Source of the DNA: a virus
Virus record (IMG/VR): IMGVR_UViG_3300028563_000031
Location: 1 to 45,413 of that record
DNA length: 45,413 nucleotides
Strand: one strand, 5' to 3'
The notes beneath the pieces are model-generated. The model did not search any database and was not told where the DNA came from. It saw nothing but the letters and a program-made list of their open reading frames with translations. The stretch's first letter is position 1; each line of letters opens with the position of its first letter. This document shows positions 25,623-40,951 of this stretch, one piece after another. The position numbers and the translations under genes are program-made.

Positions 25623-27557
25623 TTATAAACCAGTAATATGTGCGCTATCCGGAATAGCTTTTGGTTTATATTGTTCACCATATAAACCCCATAATAGGTA
25701 CATTAAAGCTGAAGGTAGTTGCGTAGAAAACCAAACCTGATCTTCATATTCCAGTTTTACTTCGCTGGTTTTGTCAAGTTCAATTCCAAAACCTTTCTCT
25801 CTTTTTAGCGGGCTCATATAAATACAAGAGATTAATTGTTCACACTCATACTGGCAAATTCCTATGCGTGGGGTACGTTTCTCACGTTCACTGAGCAATA
25901 TTTCAAGTAACATAAAATGTTCCCAATAGAATATAGTGCGCTGATCGGAAGGTGTGCAAAGTTCAACCCTCCATCCGAGATCCTCCAGACAACGTTTTAA
26001 AATCGCTATGTCAGTCTTACCTTTTGGGTTATTTGCATATATTTCTTTGCGTTGATTACCGGCACGATCGTAATATATCCGCATGTATTTCTTTTGATGT
26101 GGCCTGAAGAATTCATTTATCTCCAGAGCTAAATCAAAATGTTGCCTGGGAGTCCAGACAAAGAAGTTTTTTAATACTTTGAGGTCATTTCCTTTCTCCT
26201 GGGCGATAACGCAACTCATAAAGTTGCCCGGATCGAATCCCATAAGCAAAGGTTTGCATGTATCGCAGTATTTAAGGTCAGCGCTAGTTCGCTTATATTC
26301 TCCCGCTACGTTTACATCATCAAAACCACCAGGTCCTTTATCATATTTATAACTGTCAGTAAAAATATGTTGCTTTCCAAACCAGGCAAAGAACATTTCT
26401 TTAACCCTGTCAGGCCTTATGCCTAAAATAGACAATAAAAACTTTGAAACGTTACTTTTAGCGCCTTTGAACTGACGTGTAATATAATCATTGCCCAAAA
26501 CAGCCAGATTACTGAAGGATGAACCTTTAATATATGACCATAATCCGGATTCTTCCTTACGTTTTTCGAGTAGAAAAGCCTTCCAACGATTAATAAACCT
26601 TGTTAATCGTAATATTTCGGCCTCCGCAGACTTAATTTTGGTTAATAAACCTGATTTTCTGGCTTCTTCAAGGTCTACTTCAGCATTTAAAAGCTCTCCT
26701 TCAGCTTTTAGAGTACGAAAAGCAATGTATTCAATCAAATCAAGTGCCGATCGGTTAACATTTTCTTCGTAATGCGTCCACCAGTCTTCATCGTTTTCAA
26801 AATTTGGAGTACTTGAGAATCCTGTCATTCCACCGAAATAGTGAGAATGGCCATATATTTCCCTGTCTTCACGTAAAGTTGGAAATACCCGTTCAACAAA
26901 ATCGGTTTCTTTAATGCGTAAAAGTTCGTCAACAAACACATGTACAACGCTTTTACCAATAATACTTTCAGGACGGTCAAGGCTTCCAAATAACAAAACG
27001 GTTCCCCACGCAAATGAAATGGTATGTTTCCATGATCCAACCGGAGTCAACGGCCTTTTAAAATGTTTGGGCGGCTCCTTGCCGTATTCATAATGTATAC
27101 CTCTAGTATAATGCTTACCCAAATATGTAATGATGCCTGGTACAATTGTATCCATGGCAAACGTATAAGTTGGAGCAACCAGCAACATTGTACTCCTGGG
27201 CATATCATAAGTAATGCGAACAATGCGGGGAGCGAACATCTCAGTAGTTTTGCCGGATCCTCGACCAACTTCACCAAGCAAATTTTGAGTGTCTGATAAT
27301 AAAACATGATGCTGAACAACAGTATTATATTTATCAATAAATTCTATATTACTGTTATAAAATCCAGCGACCATGCTCATTGCAAAAACACTCGACCCGG
27401 AGAAGTCAAAAAAACTATCTAAATTTAAGTGAGGAAGTATTGATATGATTAAGGAGAAAGCAACAATGGCGATGAGTAGCAAAGCAAATTTTCTCAGTAA
27501 TTTAAGTCTATAAAGAAAAATATTGCTTTGGCTTCTGGCTAATTGCTTTTTATTCAT
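25623..27557 (-). CDS. terL: Terminase large subunit with an unusual N-terminal membrane-anchor module, 644 aa
   Basis: The ATPase-nuclease that packages DNA. Walker A is GRGSGKTT at 98-105, Walker B is in VVHVFVDELLR around 203-213, and the nuclease acidic residues lie in MGFDPGNFMS (near 415) and MRIYYDRAGN (near 470). Unusually, the first about 70 residues precede the normal start of the domain and contain a basic patch (NKKQLARSQ), a hydrophobic helix at about 23-41 and SFFDFSGSSVFAMSMVAGF. This module recurs at the start of the 337-aa virion protein. A shorter start at M60 or M62 would remove it. It overlaps the upstream gene by 8 nt. Confidence 0.93.
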   Translation of the reverse strand: MNKKQLARSQSNIFLYRLKLLRKFALLLIAIVAFSLIISILPHLNLDSFFDFSGSSVFAMSMVAGFYNSNIEFIDKYNTVVQHHVLLSDTQNLLGEVGRGSGKTTEMFAPRIVRITYDMPRSTMLLVAPTYTFAMDTIVPGIITYLGKHYTRGIHYEYGKEPPKHFKRPLTPVGSWKHTISFAWGTVLLFGSLDRPESIIGKSVVHVFVDELLRIKETDFVERVFPTLREDREIYGHSHYFGGMTGFSSTPNFENDEDWWTHYEENVNRSALDLIEYIAFRTLKAEGELLNAEVDLEEARKSGLLTKIKSAEAEILRLTRFINRWKAFLLEKRKEESGLWSYIKGSSFSNLAVLGNDYITRQFKGAKSNVSKFLLSILGIRPDRVKEMFFAWFGKQHIFTDSYKYDKGPGGFDDVNVAGEYKRTSADLKYCDTCKPLLMGFDPGNFMSCVIAQEKGNDLKVLKNFFVWTPRQHFDLALEINEFFRPHQKKYMRIYYDRAGNQRKEIYANNPKGKTDIAILKRCLEDLGWRVELCTPSDQRTIFYWEHFMLLEILLSEREKRTPRIGICQYECEQLISCIYMSPLKREKGFGIELDKTSEVKLEYEDQVWFSTQLPSALMYLLWGLYGEQYKPKAIPDSAHITGL

Positions 27558-28540: not shown

Positions 28541-28605
28541 GATTGATAAAGTAGATTTTAATGGTAATATTTGACTTATTGCTTTTTTCATCATACTTTT
28601 GACCC

Positions 28606-28732
28606 GACGATTTTCAACATTCAAAAGTTTAGGCCTTATTACCCAAAGATAAAGAAGGTCTGGACGCATCAAAGGCCATGCGAAAGCATGGCTGTGGGTG
28701 TTGAAAATCGTCAATTTTCTGTCCAGGCCTTC
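28606..28732. other. Structured intergenic region with mutually exclusive stems
   Basis: Stem A pairs GACGATTTTCAACA (28606-28619) with TGTTGAAAATCGTC (28699-28712), a perfect 14-bp inverted repeat. Stem B pairs GAAGGTCTGGAC (28654-28665) with GTCCAGGCCTTC (28721-28732), 11 Watson-Crick pairs plus one position that is a G-U wobble only in plus-strand RNA. Inside is a hairpin GCCATGC-GAAA-GCATGGC with a GNRA loop on the plus strand. Stems A and B interlock, so the RNA would form a pseudoknot or switch. It could also be a cos/pac site beside the terminase genes. Confidence 0.6.
28620..28644. repeat. Imperfect direct repeat flanking the methyltransferase, copy 1
   Basis: The 25-nt segment ending in GCCTTATTACCC matches 29551-29576 with two substitutions and a 1-nt gap. 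The pair brackets the methyltransferase gene, suggesting the gene was gained or can be lost by recombination between them. Confidence 0.55.
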
Positions 28733-28738
28733 CCTCTT

Positions 28739-29541
28739 TTAAACTAAAGAATAATTCATTGTAAGTACTTCCGTTTTTTTCTTACCGTTTCCGGAGCCTT
28801 TATTGACACTTACTTCCATGTTAAAAGTTTTATTAATCCATTTGTTTCTCTTAGTATATTCAGTAAGTAAATCAGAAGGATAAGAACTTAGTATAAACTT
28901 GCCTTTAACTTCAGATAAAAGTTTTAGAAGGTTTTCAAAATCATCCTTTGAATATCCATCGTAATGGCCACAATCTGAATTATAATAAGGAGGATCACAA
29001 TAAAAAAATGAATCAATACTATCCCTGGAGTTTATAATTCGAAGCGCATCAGTGCATTCAATTTGAACATTCTGCAAACGAATTGCAAAGTCTTCGGTAA
29101 ATGATTCCCGCTTGTTTCTGATCTTCTTTGATGTTGTACATTTTTTGATATCATAACCCCAGGATCCGTCTAGTATTGAACTGAAACTTTGTGCAGCCAA
29201 TGCCCAAACCGCCCATGCTCTTTTAACTTCAGAAAACATGTGCGGATTGTTATAAATAACATCGGCATCTTTGTGCAATCTGCGACTGTGAAGCGAGATC
29301 CTTACTTCCTTCTCCAATCCGACAAAATCGTTCTGGACCACTCGGTAAAAGTTTATTAACTCATTGTTCGTATCGTTTATCACTTCAACCGCTGAAGGAT
29401 CCTTAGCGAAGAAAACGGCTGCTCCTCCAATAAAAGGTTCACAATAAAGTGAGTGTGGAGGAATTAATTCAATAATTCTTGTACATAGTTTTTGTTTTCC
29501 ACCATAATAACTGATTGGTGTTTTGAGGACTTTTTTTTCAT
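28739..29541 (-). CDS. D12-class adenine-N6 DNA methyltransferase (Dam type), start out of frame across an A8 tract
   Basis: Reading upstream of GTG 29383 in the same frame gives VLKTPISYYGGKQKL, then YCEPFIGGAAVFFAK (AdoMet-binding FxGGxA motif), VINDTNNELINFYR, and the catalytic DPPYY in FFYCDPPYYNSD. This is the motif set and order of D12 Dam methyltransferases. The only suitable ATG (29541-29539) is followed by eight A (29538-29531) and is one base out of frame. Nine A would give MKKKVLKTP and a 267-aa protein, the usual Dam length. A product begun at GTG 29383 would lack the cofactor motif. So the gene is phase-OFF, frameshift-dependent, or a homopolymer miscall. Confidence 0.88.
29531..29538 (-). 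repeat. A8 homopolymer after the methyltransferase start codon
   Basis: Eight adenines on the coding strand directly after ATG. One more base restores the frame of a full-length D12 methyltransferase. Such a tract is a typical slipped-strand phase-variation site. Confidence 0.8.
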
Positions 29542-29865
29542 TATAAAAGATTTAAAAGGTTAGTGCCTTATTACCCGTTAAATCAATTATTCAAATATTC
29601 ACTATTTATTTAGCCTCGGAAAAGACAAAACACTGAATAAAGTTATCATATGGAGGTTCTTTGCTGCTGATTTTAGTATTAAACCATTTAATTTCAAATT
29701 TTTGGTTCAAAAAATAAATTTTTCAAAAAATTTGTATCAATTTATTTAGCGCACCGCTGATAATTGGGTTTGTAATACAATGAACTTTCAAAACACAGAT
29801 ATATGACAAGCATTACTTTTTCAATTACTTACACTATAGATTTAATTTGAATTTTTTTTGGTAGT
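29542..29865. other. AT-rich non-coding gap upstream of the methyltransferase
   Basis: I see no credible gene in these 324 bp. They hold one copy of the direct repeat (29551-29576) and a very AT-rich stretch near 29690-29745 with a weak internal complementarity (CAAATT...AATTTG types). It is probably a promoter or leader for the methyltransferase. Confidence 0.45.
29551..29576. repeat. Imperfect direct repeat flanking the methyltransferase, copy 2
   Basis: Partner of 28620-28644. On the minus strand both copies read GGGTAATAAGGC, then a C/T-rich stretch and a short distance to ATGAAAAAA, so they could also be duplicated leader sequences. Confidence 0.55.
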
Positions 29866-31180: not shown

Positions 31181-32194
31181 CTAATTTCGGGATCCTGCAA
31201 CTTCGACAAATACATATGTTGCACCTCCAAATATTTTAAAGGAAATCTGTTTTCCTGCATTTGCAGTCCAGGTTGCACCACCAATTAGTAAAAATGTAGC
31301 TGAAGCTGCAATTGTACTTGGAAATGCCCCTCCAGATCCTTGAAGTGTAATAATCCTTCCGACATCAGAATCGGATGTTCCTGTTATTGCTGTAATTGCT
31401 TTTGCCGATGTGGCAGCTGTTGTTAATTGATAAACTGGATTAGAGGTAAGCAAAATAGTCGTTGCATCTGCAGCGACGGTTACTGGATCAGCTATTGGCG
31501 TACTACCAACATATTTATTCAGAATATCACCACATTCATTGGCAAAAGTGATTGTTGTGGCTGTTTTGTCTTTATCAGATCCACCATCAAATTTCGTCAT
31601 TCGAAGCGGCTTGCAGGAATTACCACCAATATAATTCTCACTTGTGGCACATATTTGCAAAACAACGTAAAACCCTTTGCCTATTCCAATCTTAAGATAA
31701 TTGAAAATATCTGTTGACATTCCTCCGATAATCAGAGTAATTTCAGTATTTATAACTGCAGCTATTTCACCTTGAGTACCTGACCATTTTAATGAAGGCG
31801 TATCAATAACGGAATCTATATATTTCCATTTTTCGCCCGCTTTTAAAGGAATATTGGCAACTTCGCCATTAATGGCTGCTGGAAATTGTTGTGTATCGTC
31901 CACCTGGGCCTGCTCAATAAACCATAATCGCGCTTTGATCTGCTTACCAATTTTTTGTGTATTATCCGGATCACCGTCAATATTTCCAAATCCACTGACC
32001 ACTCCTGCAGTTATTACACTTCCCGAACCGGCCAGGTCAAAAAAATGATCCATGCTCAAATTACCTGTAATTACTGAGCCAATAACATAAATGGCTAATA
32101 TAACCCCTATCGCAATGGCAAAGTTTTGTATGATTTTCATCCTGGAGCGTAAAACCTTGTTCTGGCTCCAGGCCAATTGTTTTTTATTTTTCAT
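31181..32194 (-). CDS. Mosaic membrane-anchored virion protein, 337 aa
   Basis: Residues 1-71 repeat the terminase N-terminal module: NKKQLAWSQ, a hydrophobic helix at 25-42, then DHFFDLAGSG ... VVSGFGN. Residues about 75-235 are a soluble domain with no family I recognise (KARLWFIEQAQVDD ... FYVVLQICATSENYIGG). Residues about 240-337 (AADATTILLTS ... AITAITGTSDSDVGRIITL ... FVEVAGSRN) match the C-terminal domain of the neighbouring capsid protein. It is flanked by its own terminator on each side. A capsid decoration or tail tube protein is possible; the membrane anchor is odd for either. Confidence 0.78.
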   Translation of the reverse strand: MKNKKQLAWSQNKVLRSRMKIIQNFAIAIGVILAIYVIGSVITGNLSMDHFFDLAGSGSVITAGVVSGFGNIDGDPDNTQKIGKQIKARLWFIEQAQVDDTQQFPAAINGEVANIPLKAGEKWKYIDSVIDTPSLKWSGTQGEIAAVINTEITLIIGGMSTDIFNYLKIGIGKGFYVVLQICATSENYIGGNSCKPLRMTKFDGGSDKDKTATTITFANECGDILNKYVGSTPIADPVTVAADATTILLTSNPVYQLTTAATSAKAITAITGTSDSDVGRIITLQGSGGAFPSTIAASATFLLIGGATWTANAGKQISFKIFGGATYVFVEVAGSRN

Positions 32195-36453: not shown

Positions 36454-36801
36454 TTACTCCAAAATCGTCCAGTCATTTGAAAGCATATCGGTTTGAGATG
36501 CTAACCAGCCATTAACGATTGTTCCATCAGCAGCTTTCATACATAGATAAGCAGTAAACTTAACTTTGTCGTCTTCATCTGCTGGAGAAATGCGATTACC
36601 ATTACCATCTAAAACATCTTTTAGATAAAAGTCCTTTACACTTTGTGGCAATGATTTAACCTTGTCAATTACCATGTCAATGTGTAGTTCATCGGCTGGC
36701 CGCATAAAAACAAACATGCCTTTACCGTTCCAACCTTGTCGAGCAATTCGCCCACCCGCTTTTGCAACTTCTAAAGCTGCACCAAAAGATAAATTTTCCA
36801 T
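36454..36801 (-). CDS. DUF2829 protein, Tad2-like candidate Thoeris inhibitor, 115 aa
   Basis: SFGAALEVAKAGGRIARQGWNGKGMFVFM (residues 5-33) and the C-terminal AYLCMKAADGTIVNGWLASQTDMLSNDW (84-111) are the two hallmark segments of DUF2829. In that family phage Tad2 proteins bind and sequester the cyclic ADP-ribose signal made by Thoeris TIR enzymes. Length near 115 fits, and the GWN and SQTDM residues are intact. An extra 30-residue insertion (PADELHIDMVIDKVKSLPQSVKDFYLK) between the segments is longer than I remember for small members. It lies next to an ASCH gene and the DGR. Anti-defence activity is inferred from family membership. Confidence 0.85.
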   Translation of the reverse strand: MENLSFGAALEVAKAGGRIARQGWNGKGMFVFMRPADELHIDMVIDKVKSLPQSVKDFYLKDVLDGNGNRISPADEDDKVKFTAYLCMKAADGTIVNGWLASQTDMLSNDWTILE

Positions 36802-37471: not shown

Positions 37472-37777
37472 TCATGTAAATTTAAATCTCTCATTATCTT
37501 TAACTATAGTAGTCGTAAATGGAAATCCTTCATCCGGTATCTGTTGAATTACCTCAATTAAACCTCCTGCTGAAGTAAAAACGATGTGCTTTTCATTATC
37601 AACAGAGATCTGAAGCTGCAAACATTTACCGCTTCCACGTTCCTTGAAACATTTAGAGTCATCAATTTTGAAATGATATACCACGATTTCGCGGTTTAGG
37701 ATCTTCGACATTTTAATTTTATCACCTTCGTATCCTTTTGAGGGTTCTTTAATTTTAAACTGACTAAAATTATTCAT
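37472..37777 (-). CDS. Small beta-rich protein coupled to the DGR reverse transcriptase, 101 aa
   Basis: Its start overlaps the reverse transcriptase stop by 8 nt, so it is translated with it. The sequence alternates strands (REIVVYHFKIDDS, KCLQLQISVDNEKHIVFTS, PFTTTIVKDNERFKF) with SKCFKERGSGKCLQLQI, consistent with a small beta-barrel (OB-like) protein. It is not the usual helical Avd accessory protein of DGRs by composition. It could replace Avd as an RNA- or DNA-binding partner; this is speculation from coupling. Confidence 0.7.
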   Translation of the reverse strand: MNNFSQFKIKEPSKGYEGDKIKMSKILNREIVVYHFKIDDSKCFKERGSGKCLQLQISVDNEKHIVFTSAGGLIEVIQQIPDEGFPFTTTIVKDNERFKFT

Positions 37778-38723
37778 GTAATAACTTCTTTAATAAATGT
37801 ATACTATTACAATGACTAGCCCAGCCATTGTATGATGCTATGGATTGTTTATTCTTATTGTTTACCAACATCCTGGCAAAGTTCTGTTTAATGCTTTTCC
37901 TTAAAAGAGTATGTGTATGATGGAAAACGTAACCTACAAAATCAATTCCCCTGGCCTTTACCGGAAAGATTTGATAATTATCCTTTATTTGCAGTTTAAG
38001 CCTTTCATTCATATATATTTTTATGTCTGCAAGCAATTTGTGTAAGTACGGTTTGCTATTCGATAAAATAACCAGGTCATCAGCATATCTGAAGTAATAT
38101 TGTACATGCTTTTCTTCTTTCATCCAGTGATCAAAATATGACAAATAGAAATTTGCGAAATATTGGCTGAGATAATTGCCAATGGGTAATCCATCAGTGC
38201 TGTCAATAATTTCATCAAGGAGCCATAATAGATCCAGGTCTTTAAACTTTCGGCGAAGCAATTGCTTCAAAATATTATGATTTATGTTCGGATAGAACTT
38301 TTTAATGTCGAGTTTCATACAATATTGCGTTGCATCTTTATCTTTTAATGCATTTTTAACTGCATTAGCGCAAGCGTGAATTCCCCTTTTTTTAATACAA
38401 CTATAAGTATCGGCGGTAAATGTTGATACAAAAATAGGTTCAAGTATATGCATAATTGCATGGTGAGTGATGCGATCAGGAAAATATGGCAACCTGAATA
38501 TAATCCTTTCTTTTGGTTCGTGTATTGTAAAGGTTGTATAATCAGAAGTTTTGTAAGTTTTATTTATAAGCATTTCGTGAAGCTTCACTATGTTTTCATC
38601 CCTGTTTTTATCGTGTTCAATTATACCAGGTTGTTTTGATTTCCCTTTTCGGGCAATAATATCAGCCAATTGAATATTTTCAATGCTGCAGATCTGTTCG
38701 TATAAATTATTAATCCTTTTCAT
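37770..38723 (-). CDS. Diversity-generating retroelement reverse transcriptase, 317 aa
   Basis: Motifs occur in RT order: KERIIFRLPYFPDRITHHAI (71-90), YCMKLDIKKFYPNI (134-147, catalytic D139), DGLPIGNYLSQYFANFYL (177-194), and FRYADDLVIL (211-220, catalytic D215/D216), then GIDFVGYVF. IGNYLSQ, in place of the QGxxxSP of retroviral enzymes, is the DGR signature in motif 4. No integrase or maturase domain is present. It is transcribed after the two target genes and the 82-nt template 101 bp upstream. It would copy the template RNA with errors at adenines and write the cDNA into the variable repeats. Confidence 0.97.
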   Translation of the reverse strand: MKRINNLYEQICSIENIQLADIIARKGKSKQPGIIEHDKNRDENIVKLHEMLINKTYKTSDYTTFTIHEPKERIIFRLPYFPDRITHHAIMHILEPIFVSTFTADTYSCIKKRGIHACANAVKNALKDKDATQYCMKLDIKKFYPNINHNILKQLLRRKFKDLDLLWLLDEIIDSTDGLPIGNYLSQYFANFYLSYFDHWMKEEKHVQYYFRYADDLVILSNSKPYLHKLLADIKIYMNERLKLQIKDNYQIFPVKARGIDFVGYVFHHTHTLLRKSIKQNFARMLVNNKNKQSIASYNGWASHCNSIHLLKKLLHE

Positions 38724-38942: not shown

Positions 38943-39356
38943 TTAAAAAAAATAGTCCTGGTATTCGGCCTTAAACTGCTTTGCAATGTATAATGACTTT
39001 TCAGATGTATCAGTGCAAAGGCGAGAACCGACGTACGTAAACGCGATCGTATAGTCGTAACCCGAATCCGACAAAACGAACCCGGAACCGGAAGACTTAA
39101 CTTCATACCATGGATAGTATTTATATTGATTCCAATCGGTATAATCAGCAATCCATCCATTGTTAATTGCCTGAAAGATGATCATCAGTTTATAAGCATT
39201 AATTATTGCTTTTCTTAAACCTTCAGGTAACATGGATACATCTGGAAGTTTTTCAGGATCCACATTTTCTTTTTTACAGGCGTCTTCAAAGCTTTTAATC
39301 ATTTTAAAATTGAACTCGACCGTCTTTTTAACTGTTTTTTTTGCTTTAGTTTCCAT
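38943..39356 (-). CDS. DGR target protein 1, 137 aa
   Basis: A small soluble protein with no signal peptide or membrane helix. The N-terminus is Lys-rich, and a helical part follows to about residue 70. Then comes the conserved frame YYPWYEVKSSGSGFVLS, the variable region, and VGSRLC followed by a helix (SEKSLYIAKQFKAEYQDYFF). I know this PW.. GSGF .. VGSRLCF pattern from short Bacteroidota phage proteins. Template-encoded NSNYNYTNTNTNVSSH is here DSGYDYTIAFTYVGSR, so most template Asn codons have been changed. It is 17 nt after target 2 and precedes the template. Confidence 0.92.
   Translation of the reverse strand: METKAKKTVKKTVEFNFKMIKSFEDACKKENVDPEKLPDVSMLPEGLRKAIINAYKLMIIFQAINNGWIADYTDWNQYKYYPWYEVKSSGSGFVLSDSGYDYTIAFTYVGSRLCTDTSEKSLYIAKQFKAEYQDYFF
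39015..39096 (-). repeat. DGR variable repeat 1 (VR1), 82 nt
   Basis: Aligned without gaps to TR 38825-38906 (constant offset 190). Thirteen of 21 template adenines are substituted (to G or T), with no other change. It ends 23 codons before the gene end. Confidence 0.97.
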
Positions 39357-39373
39357 TGTTTATTTGGTTTAGA

Positions 39374-39829
39374 TTATAAAAAATAGTTGTAAAGATCAAT
39401 GAATTGCTGTGCTACGTAGTTTGATTTTTCTTCGCTTTCAAAGCAAAGGCGAGAACCGACGTACGTAAACGCGTACGTACAGTCGGAATCCGAAGACGAC
39501 AAAACGAACCCGGAACCGGAAGACTTTGTAAATACCGGGAACCATTTGGGTTGATTAGGATTGTTAAAGTCTGGAACAAAATTGCCATTTACTGCACTGA
39601 TAACTACTTTTAATTTTTTATAGGCAATTTCATCAGGCGTATCAGAAGAATTGAAAACGATATCTTCCGGTTTAATGCCTTTAAATACACAGGCATCTTC
39701 TAAAGTTTTAATGTCCTCAAAACTTTGTTTATTGAAGGTTTTCTCTCCAAATTCTGAAACCAATTGTTCTTTGAACCAATCAGGTGAATCAGAATAGATC
39801 CTTTTTGCAACTGTTTTTGTTATTTCCAT
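39374..39829 (-). CDS. DGR target protein 2, 151 aa
   Basis: A paralogue of target 1. The N-terminal 80 residues diverge, but KWFPVFTKSSGSGFVLS, the variable region and VGSRLCFESEEKSNYVAQQFIDLYNYFL align directly. The variable residues are SSDSDCTYAFTYVGSR against the template NSNYNYTNTNTNVSSH. No signal peptide is seen. One template therefore serves two different scaffolds. It lies 36 nt after the membrane zinc-finger gene. Ligand-binding diversification is the known DGR purpose; what this protein binds is unknown. Confidence 0.92.
   Translation of the reverse strand: MEITKTVAKRIYSDSPDWFKEQLVSEFGEKTFNKQSFEDIKTLEDACVFKGIKPEDIVFNSSDTPDEIAYKKLKVVISAVNGNFVPDFNNPNQPKWFPVFTKSSGSGFVLSSSDSDCTYAFTYVGSRLCFESEEKSNYVAQQFIDLYNYFL
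39443..39524 (-). repeat. DGR variable repeat 2 (VR2), 82 nt
   Basis: Aligned without gaps to TR; 15 of 21 template adenines are substituted (to G, T or C), nothing else. VR1 and VR2 differ from each other at 7 positions, all template adenines and all in the 5' two-thirds, while the last 30 nt are identical. Confidence 0.97.
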
Positions 39830-40483: not shown

Positions 40484-40951
40484 TTTATGGTTTGGTTTTA
40501 AAAATGTAAAAAAAATCTCTTTTTTGAATTTGTGTTTTTTCTGCTCCAACGCTCCAACGATCCAACAGAAAATCATTAAATCATTAAATATTAACAATAT
40601 AACTCTTTATTTTTGTTGGAGCAGTCCTAAAAAAATTGGTTTTGACGTTCCAACAGAAATTTTTAAAAAAAAGGGGTGTTCCAACAAAAAACCAACGGTG
40701 TTCCAACAGAAAAATAAAATAAAATTTACACCCATATATATATATTATTTATTATTAACTATTTATATTATTATTATATGGCTCATTTAAAATCTTGTTG
40801 GATCGTTGGAGCGTTGGAACACCTTTTTCGGTTTTCAATTTTTGGTTTTTAAAAGTCTTTTTTTTGATGTCCTGGACTCCCATTTTTGAAAAAATTTCGA
40901 ACACTGCATTTTTTTATGATGGGGGTAACAGGGGGAAAATTGATAATAACC
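40484..40951. other. Iteron-rich intergenic region between primase-helicase and membrane gene
   Basis: A 468-bp stretch with no credible gene. It contains the TCCAAC/GTTGGA array at 40545-40818, an extremely AT-rich core (about 40735-40785, including ATATATATATATTATTTATT) and two G-runs near 40919-40936. The membrane protein reading frame can be extended into it, but the extension looks non-coding. Confidence 0.75.
40545..40818. other. Predicted replication origin: mirror-image iterons around an AT-rich core
   Basis: TCCAAC occurs at 40545, 40553 and 40561, exactly 8 bp apart, and GTTGGA at 40797, 40805 and 40813, again 8 bp apart. The two triplets make an inverted repeat of about 22 bp. Between them are further copies at 40615 (GTTGGA), 40649, 40680 and 40702 (TCCAAC), most inside TTCCAACA(G)AA. 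The interval includes a long A/T-only stretch suited to unwinding. It lies directly downstream of the primase-helicase. Iterons plus a DNA-unwinding element are the known make-up of origins. Confidence 0.72.

Follow-up and report, generated by a model that had tools for sequence, protein, structure and literature searches.

Introduction

In phage Mu, the modification gene mom lies at the right genome end and is controlled by the Com protein. Antisense control has been described for pAD1 par (Fst; RNAI/RNAII) of Enterococcus, where convergent transcripts carry repeats at the translation start and share an end (PMC7472228). The antisense RNAs of EcoRI (Rna0) and Eco29kI start at reverse promoters within the R or M genes of complete restriction-modification (R-M) systems and act by overlap and promoter interference (PMC3874152, PMC12707154), and the DonS-type cis-antisense RNAs of Bacteroides, 78-128 nucleotides (nt) long and divergent to their targets, are directed at susC homologues of polysaccharide loci (PMC7366714). 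Here, an element at positions 28,606 to 28,732 of the IMG/VR virus record IMGVR_UViG_3300028563_000031 was analysed; the window referred to below is the whole stretch of 45,413 nt (positions 1 to 45,413 of that record). The element adjoins the gene of a DNA methyltransferase (MTase) and is probably a self-folding, pseudoknotted antisense small RNA (sRNA) that would repress translation of this phage enzyme by pairing with the leader of its mRNA. A literature search, in which few subscription papers were covered, found no description of this RNA.

Folding of the element

Two long stems cross each other in the element. In stem A, GACGATTTTCAACA (28606-28619) and TGTTGAAAATCGTC (28699-28712) form a perfect helix of 14 base pairs (bp) that continues inward with mismatches, and in stem B, GAAGGTCTGGAC (28654-28665) and GTCCAGGCCTTC (28721-28732) form 12 bp including one U-G, which is a pair in the plus-strand RNA only. 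The arms of the two stems interlock in a pseudoknot topology, with a 7-bp hairpin C, GCCATGC-GAAA-GCATGGC (28675-28692), inside. The original prediction, made from the letters alone, had named the perfect stem, the stem crossing it, the GNRA-capped hairpin and the strand-specific wobble, all of which were confirmed in place, and it had correctly described the neighbours as leftward, as all nearby genes run in this direction. It had overlooked a third hairpin, hp1, in which GAAGGTCTGGAC can also pair with GTTTAGGCCTT (28628-28638), so that hp1 and stem B, sharing one strand, compete with each other.

Folding of the plus-strand RNA yielded -51.0 kcal/mol (z = -7.6; 0 of 200 shuffles as good), and folding of the minus strand -37.8 kcal/mol (z = -3.3). 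No second copy of the stem was found across the window. Rfam gave nothing for the window element at the gathering threshold and matches at chance level only at relaxed thresholds; eleven loci with the RNA upstream of the MTase (see below) had no match at the gathering threshold, and a relaxed search of the window region with 13 loci of both types again returned chance-level matches only. A hepatitis delta virus-like ribozyme, considered for its crossing P1/P2-like stems, was rejected, the stems being far too long, the core nucleotides not conserved and Rfam without a ribozyme match. No features beside the element supported a retron, an attC site, a miniature inverted-repeat transposable element, or a transfer or transfer-messenger RNA, and the reverse transcriptase of the window lies 9 kb away. 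BLAST matches of the 3' part to Acinetobacter phages concerned unrelated coding regions and the 3' end only, and were likewise discarded.

Predicted pairing with the methyltransferase leader

The hp1 loop carries GCCUUAUUACCC (28633-28644), the exact antisense of GGGUAAUAAGGC in the MTase leader. The match comprises 12 perfect bp, widens to about 20 of 22 positions, and has a predicted duplex energy of -27.4 kcal/mol in the window. Relatives, designated here by L numbers, match their own leaders with different sequences (GGGTAAACAAAGC in L044, AGGGAAAACATGC in L163, TTTAAGAATTGTTGGC in L125), over 19 nt in L215 and 23 nt in L062. As whole-RNA long-range duplex folding proved uninformative, giving global pairings, local scoring was used instead; with the same procedure, cognate sRNA-leader combinations scored 29.8 on average vs 18.3 for non-cognate ones. 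When 25 distinct leader/RNA pairs were concatenated, 95.1% of the cells of a 13-bp duplex were paired vs 69.7% after shuffling and 38-54% after sliding, the percentages being raised by the choice of register. Double-sided changes numbered 84 vs 23 in shuffled pairs, and none of 500 shuffles reached as high a value.

The target site lies about 19-50 nt before the ATG in nearly all members, usually in the loop of a predicted leader hairpin, and the leader of the window folds into a hairpin of this kind. Three members deviate from the hp1 match. Two of them, L065 and L080, lack it and have an RNA 5' arm that is antisense to MTase codons 1-5, which amounts to another contact with the same region. 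The leader motif is commoner among MTases with a downstream sRNA (24/35) than among those without (10/85; p = 3e-9). What is expected of an antisense regulator, complementarity to the region where translation of one particular mRNA begins, is thereby found together with its preservation by covariation.

The features of the window locus are as follows.

28570..28601, plus strand: predicted Bacteroidota promoter; -33 TTTG (28570-28573), 20-nt spacer and -7 box TACTTTTG (28594-28601); consensus TTTG / TAnnTTTG (PMC7366714)
28606..28738, plus strand: predicted antisense sRNA, about 130 nt long, beginning with stem A and ending in a short U-rich tail; from the fold, the relatives and model R2
28606..28623, plus strand: 5' arm of stem A, pairing with 28695-28712 (28606-28619 perfect); up to six pair types per position in 36 members
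28628..28665, plus strand: recognition hairpin hp1; minimum-energy fold, position conserved in the family
28633..28644, plus strand: antisense site GCCUUAUUACCC in hp1, complementary to the MTase mRNA leader; covariation across 25 pairs
28654..28665, plus strand: 5' arm of stem B, overlapping the 3' arm of hp1; from the sequence and relatives
28675..28692, plus strand: hairpin C with GAAA loop; from the sequence and minimum-energy fold
28695..28712, plus strand: 3' arm of stem A; from the fold and relatives
28721..28740, plus strand: 3' arm of stem B (28721-28732), then U-rich tail CCUCUUUU, a probable terminator; from the sequence, with a T-rich stretch to the MTase stop in most members
28739..29541, minus strand: gene of a D12-class N6-adenine DNA MTase; clean open reading frame (ORF) 28739-29383, homology onward towards ATG 29539-29541
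29549..29584, minus strand: predicted MTase mRNA leader hairpin; its loop and inner stem hold the target GGGUAAUAAGGC (29565-29576), which precedes the ATG by 23 nt

Model R2 matched 28607-28737 with 63 bits (E = 2e-13), the window being itself among the sequences from which it was built. To the right of the element, the MTase gene ends at its 3' edge; to the left follow two small ORFs in succession and then the large subunit of the terminase. The MTase matches Pfam MethyltransfD12 (E = 6e-11) from profile position 47 and PHROG 56, and its ORF as listed begins at a GTG (29383).

Relatives of the element and their predicted promoters

Searching with the MTase gave hundreds of matches, from which relatives were gathered; searches with the terminase or the neighbouring ORF215 retrieved a single fragment, nearly identical and ending short of the element. 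In Bacteroidota phages, 36 distinct members were identified immediately 3' of the MTase gene and always on the strand opposite to it; some of them are closely related, and their number depends on the detection thresholds. Their order is stem A (10-22 bp), hp1, stem B, hairpin C, closing arm of A, spacer and closing arm of B, usually with a T-rich end at the MTase stop codon. The covariation analysis that had been proposed as a check revealed that stems A and B vary in sequence with pairing kept: the arm sequences differ between members, the interlocking arrangement is the same, and single positions of stem A show up to six pair types among the 36 members. Control windows from the same loci contained no element (0/641, with a detector that included the promoter box). 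A search of 395 Bacteroidia genomes with the downstream model returned one weak match (L252), which was judged to be chance, with neither an MTase nearby nor a promoter.

In every member, a TAnnTTTG-like box preceded stem A by a few nt, opposite in strand to the MTase; since the detector required such a box, the search was repeated without this requirement. Among the 79 elements then selected, crossing stems were again found, and in 60 of them stem A was preceded, at 14 nt or less, by an exact TAnnTTTG, compared with 0/79 on the opposite strand. In the remaining 66 MTases, omission of the promoter requirement revealed only one downstream and three upstream crossing-stem loci (controls 2/90). 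The primary sigma factor of Bacteroides has TAnnTTTG, together with a TTTG at -33, as its consensus (PMC7366714). TAnnTTTG is found on one strand only, that of the predicted sRNA.

The covariance model of the downstream RNAs also matched just upstream of other MTases, and a direct scan revealed 44 RNAs built in the same way, which lie immediately 5' of other MTases in the clade and on the opposite strand. Among prophages of Mucilaginibacter or Pedobacter, L096 and L092-L094 have the downstream type, and L095 and L097 have the upstream one. Their 5' ends lie about 10-68 nt before the MTase ATG, and they are divergent from the MTase. Both layouts occur at one MTase only (L153); that they almost exclude each other points to a single regulator in two versions. 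An upstream-type RNA would overlap the leader of an MTase mRNA reading through from upstream, and no separate leader match was found in RNAs of this type. In the 395 Bacteroidia genomes, the best match of the upstream model adjoins an MTase relative; five of seven matches of model R3 look like chance and were set aside.

Several loci with upstream-type RNAs have further features. In L159 (4189-4302), such an RNA is followed by a thymidylate-synthase-like ORF, judged by eye, and then by the MTase; the spacing of the RNA is comparable in L148 and L171. In L153 (4768-4888), an sRNA lies on either side of the MTase; the upstream sRNA faces a lipoprotein-like gene, the leader of which is similar to the 5' arm of the RNA. 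L254 (G204:C19:224200-224319) is an upstream-model match with plausible arms and no MTase in the 3.1 kb examined there; from this locus, the RNA family may serve other genes too.

Other regions of the window

A reverse transcriptase (RVT_1, E = 4e-17) adjoins two proteins with a common, variable-looking C-terminal segment (SSGSGFVLS...YVGSRLC) at 37770-38723 and 38943-39829, and the region looks like a diversity-generating retroelement. At 36454-36801, a Tad2-like protein (E = 4.5e-22) is encoded, a candidate anti-Thoeris protein. The terminase large subunit (25623-27557) and an unrelated protein (31181-32194) resemble each other in an N-terminal segment of membrane type (M(K)NKKQLA.SQ...), an unusual feature for a terminase. 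Downstream of a DnaG-type primase gene, a long inverted-repeat cluster (26 nt, 96%) with TCCAAC units at 40542-40821 is a possible origin or operator region.

Discussion

The architecture, the strand-specific promoter motif, the genomic association and the covariation, both of the RNA and of its duplex with the leader, can be read from the sequences themselves. On this basis, the plus strand from 28606 to about 28738 would be a stand-alone small RNA gene, transcribed towards the MTase gene and convergent with it. Stem A would close around hp1 and the GAAA hairpin, and the 3' end would fold back as stem B, forming both the pseudoknot and the end of the RNA. The C-rich hp1 loop would pair with its G-rich counterpart, a complementary loop in the MTase mRNA leader some 20-45 nt ahead of the start codon, and this loop-loop contact would extend to a duplex of 12-23 bp that most likely blocks translation and/or triggers mRNA decay. 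The MTase would thereby be kept low, for example in the prophage state, until its mRNA outruns the sRNA. Formation of stem B would release the hp1 5' arm, a portion of the 13-nt antisense site, and so B may gate this site.

Several points weigh against this proposal. In the window, the MTase frame is broken in an eight-A run (29531-29538, minus strand) directly after the ATG (29539-29541), which could be an assembly error, decay or a phase-variable tract. Transcription, binding, repression and timing are steps that we infer, and that the RNA would repress and not activate is an assumption made on precedent. An antisense role of the upstream type is likewise what we infer from its position. The leader hairpins score only moderately above shuffles (17.3 vs 12.1; 21% of shuffles reach the observed score), and about 45% of the MTases have neither RNA. 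Moreover, the stem arms and duplex registers were chosen by complementarity, which inflates the paired percentages, so that weight was placed on the variety of pair types and on the non-cognate, slid and shuffled controls. The 99.7% pairing of the stems follows by construction, because the arms were found by complementarity; for the stems, the argument is carried by pair variety, the crossing arrangement and the 0/641 controls.

The same antisense RNA might act as an activator, its pairing with the leader loop opening the leader hairpin and freeing the MTase start codon. Leader hairpins do lie close to the ATG, which in L201 is inside the stem, and mom of phage Mu, an analogous modification gene at the right end, is controlled at the level of translation. 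In most members, however, pairing of the sRNA is with the loop and scarcely touches the stem, and the RNAs of L065 and L080, being antisense to codons 1-5, fit a block; blocking is favoured because this alternative contact covers the first codons, and activation appears unlikely. It is also rather improbable that the RNA works chiefly by binding the MTase or a host protein, as a decoy or in the manner of a type III antitoxin, with antisense pairing being secondary. Such a role would account for a conserved pseudoknot and GNRA/UUCG-type hairpins that exceed antisense needs, and for upstream-type RNAs without a separate leader match, but stems A and B change fast in sequence and the strongest covariation is that with the leader.

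Readings at the DNA level or on the minus strand fare worse. Direct DNA repeats or operators flanking the MTase, serving as a protein-binding or recombination site with the RNA match as a by-product, seem very unlikely: the copies in the window are indeed direct repeats 932 bp apart, and modules are common to unrelated phages, yet the common stretch is limited to loops within unrelated stems, has G-U pairs, varies freely between phages and covaries. In L065 and L080, another part of the RNA matches another part of the mRNA, and the promoter is on the antisense strand only. We give little credence to a minus-strand bidirectional terminator or a 3' untranslated structure of the MTase mRNA. The location between convergent transcription units, directly after the stop codon, would suit either, but the arms of stem B are about 55-90 nt apart, the minus strand folds worse, the promoter is on the plus strand, and a minus-strand RNA would have the sequence of the leader and not its complement. 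A pac or cos site, or another packaging signal used by the terminase, as envisaged in the original prediction, is scarcely credible. In the window, the terminase has two small genes upstream of it, the first of them 116 bp from the element, but this position is not kept: in the nearest relative (L011/L226), the MTase is followed by the element, one small ORF and the portal gene, the last called by resemblance to the window's own protein, with no terminase beside the element, and the transposable phage Peternella_1 has the MTase as last gene and the terminase in mid-genome. What the element accompanies in relatives is the MTase, and phage-end-like repeats often follow the stop codon of this gene within about 260 nt. 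Among the other suggestions of that prediction, a structured plus-strand RNA antisense to its neighbours is supported by the relatives through promoter strand, covariation and MTase-leader match; of a bistable leader of the packaging module, the bistability survives, as B and hp1 share a strand, and the link to packaging is lost, as the element follows the MTase in relatives.

As an antisense repressor, the RNA would be a dedicated regulator that one clade of Bacteroidota phages appears to have evolved for its MTases, and it occurs beside roughly half of these genes. Its contact with the target is visible by covariation across dozens of phages, and natural compensatory pairs for loop-loop antisense control are at hand in a phylum with few understood sRNAs. 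A more far-reaching possibility, put forward tentatively, is that a large family of pseudoknotted antisense RNAs that gate themselves is a standard regulator of orphan MTases in Bacteroidota phages, with two interchangeable layouts (overlapping antisense upstream, loop-targeted downstream), and that the competition between B and hp1 is a real switch timing methylation between prophage and lytic states.

Among known systems, pAD1 par resembles the layout predicted from sequence for the phage locus, with convergent transcripts running to a structured end, complementarity of repeats to the translation start, and stem-loop contact. Its target is a 33-residue toxin rather than a DNA MTase of about 270 residues, and its RNA measures about 40 nt, whereas the phage RNA is pseudoknotted, about 130 nt long and without common sequence. 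Because the target is a D12 MTase and not a small hydrophobic peptide toxin, the phage RNA is not a member of the Fst-type type I toxin-antitoxin systems. With EcoRI Rna0 and Eco29kI it has in common an antisense RNA tied to a DNA modification gene; unlike these, the MTase is an orphan phage enzyme and the RNA a separate structured molecule pairing by a short loop. The upstream type resembles DonS in its divergent position in Bacteroidota, a likeness of position and size, but DonS is aimed at susC homologues and not at an MTase. As with mom of Mu, many of the MTases lie at the right genome end; control would be by an antisense RNA here instead of the Com protein, and mom is not a D12 MTase.
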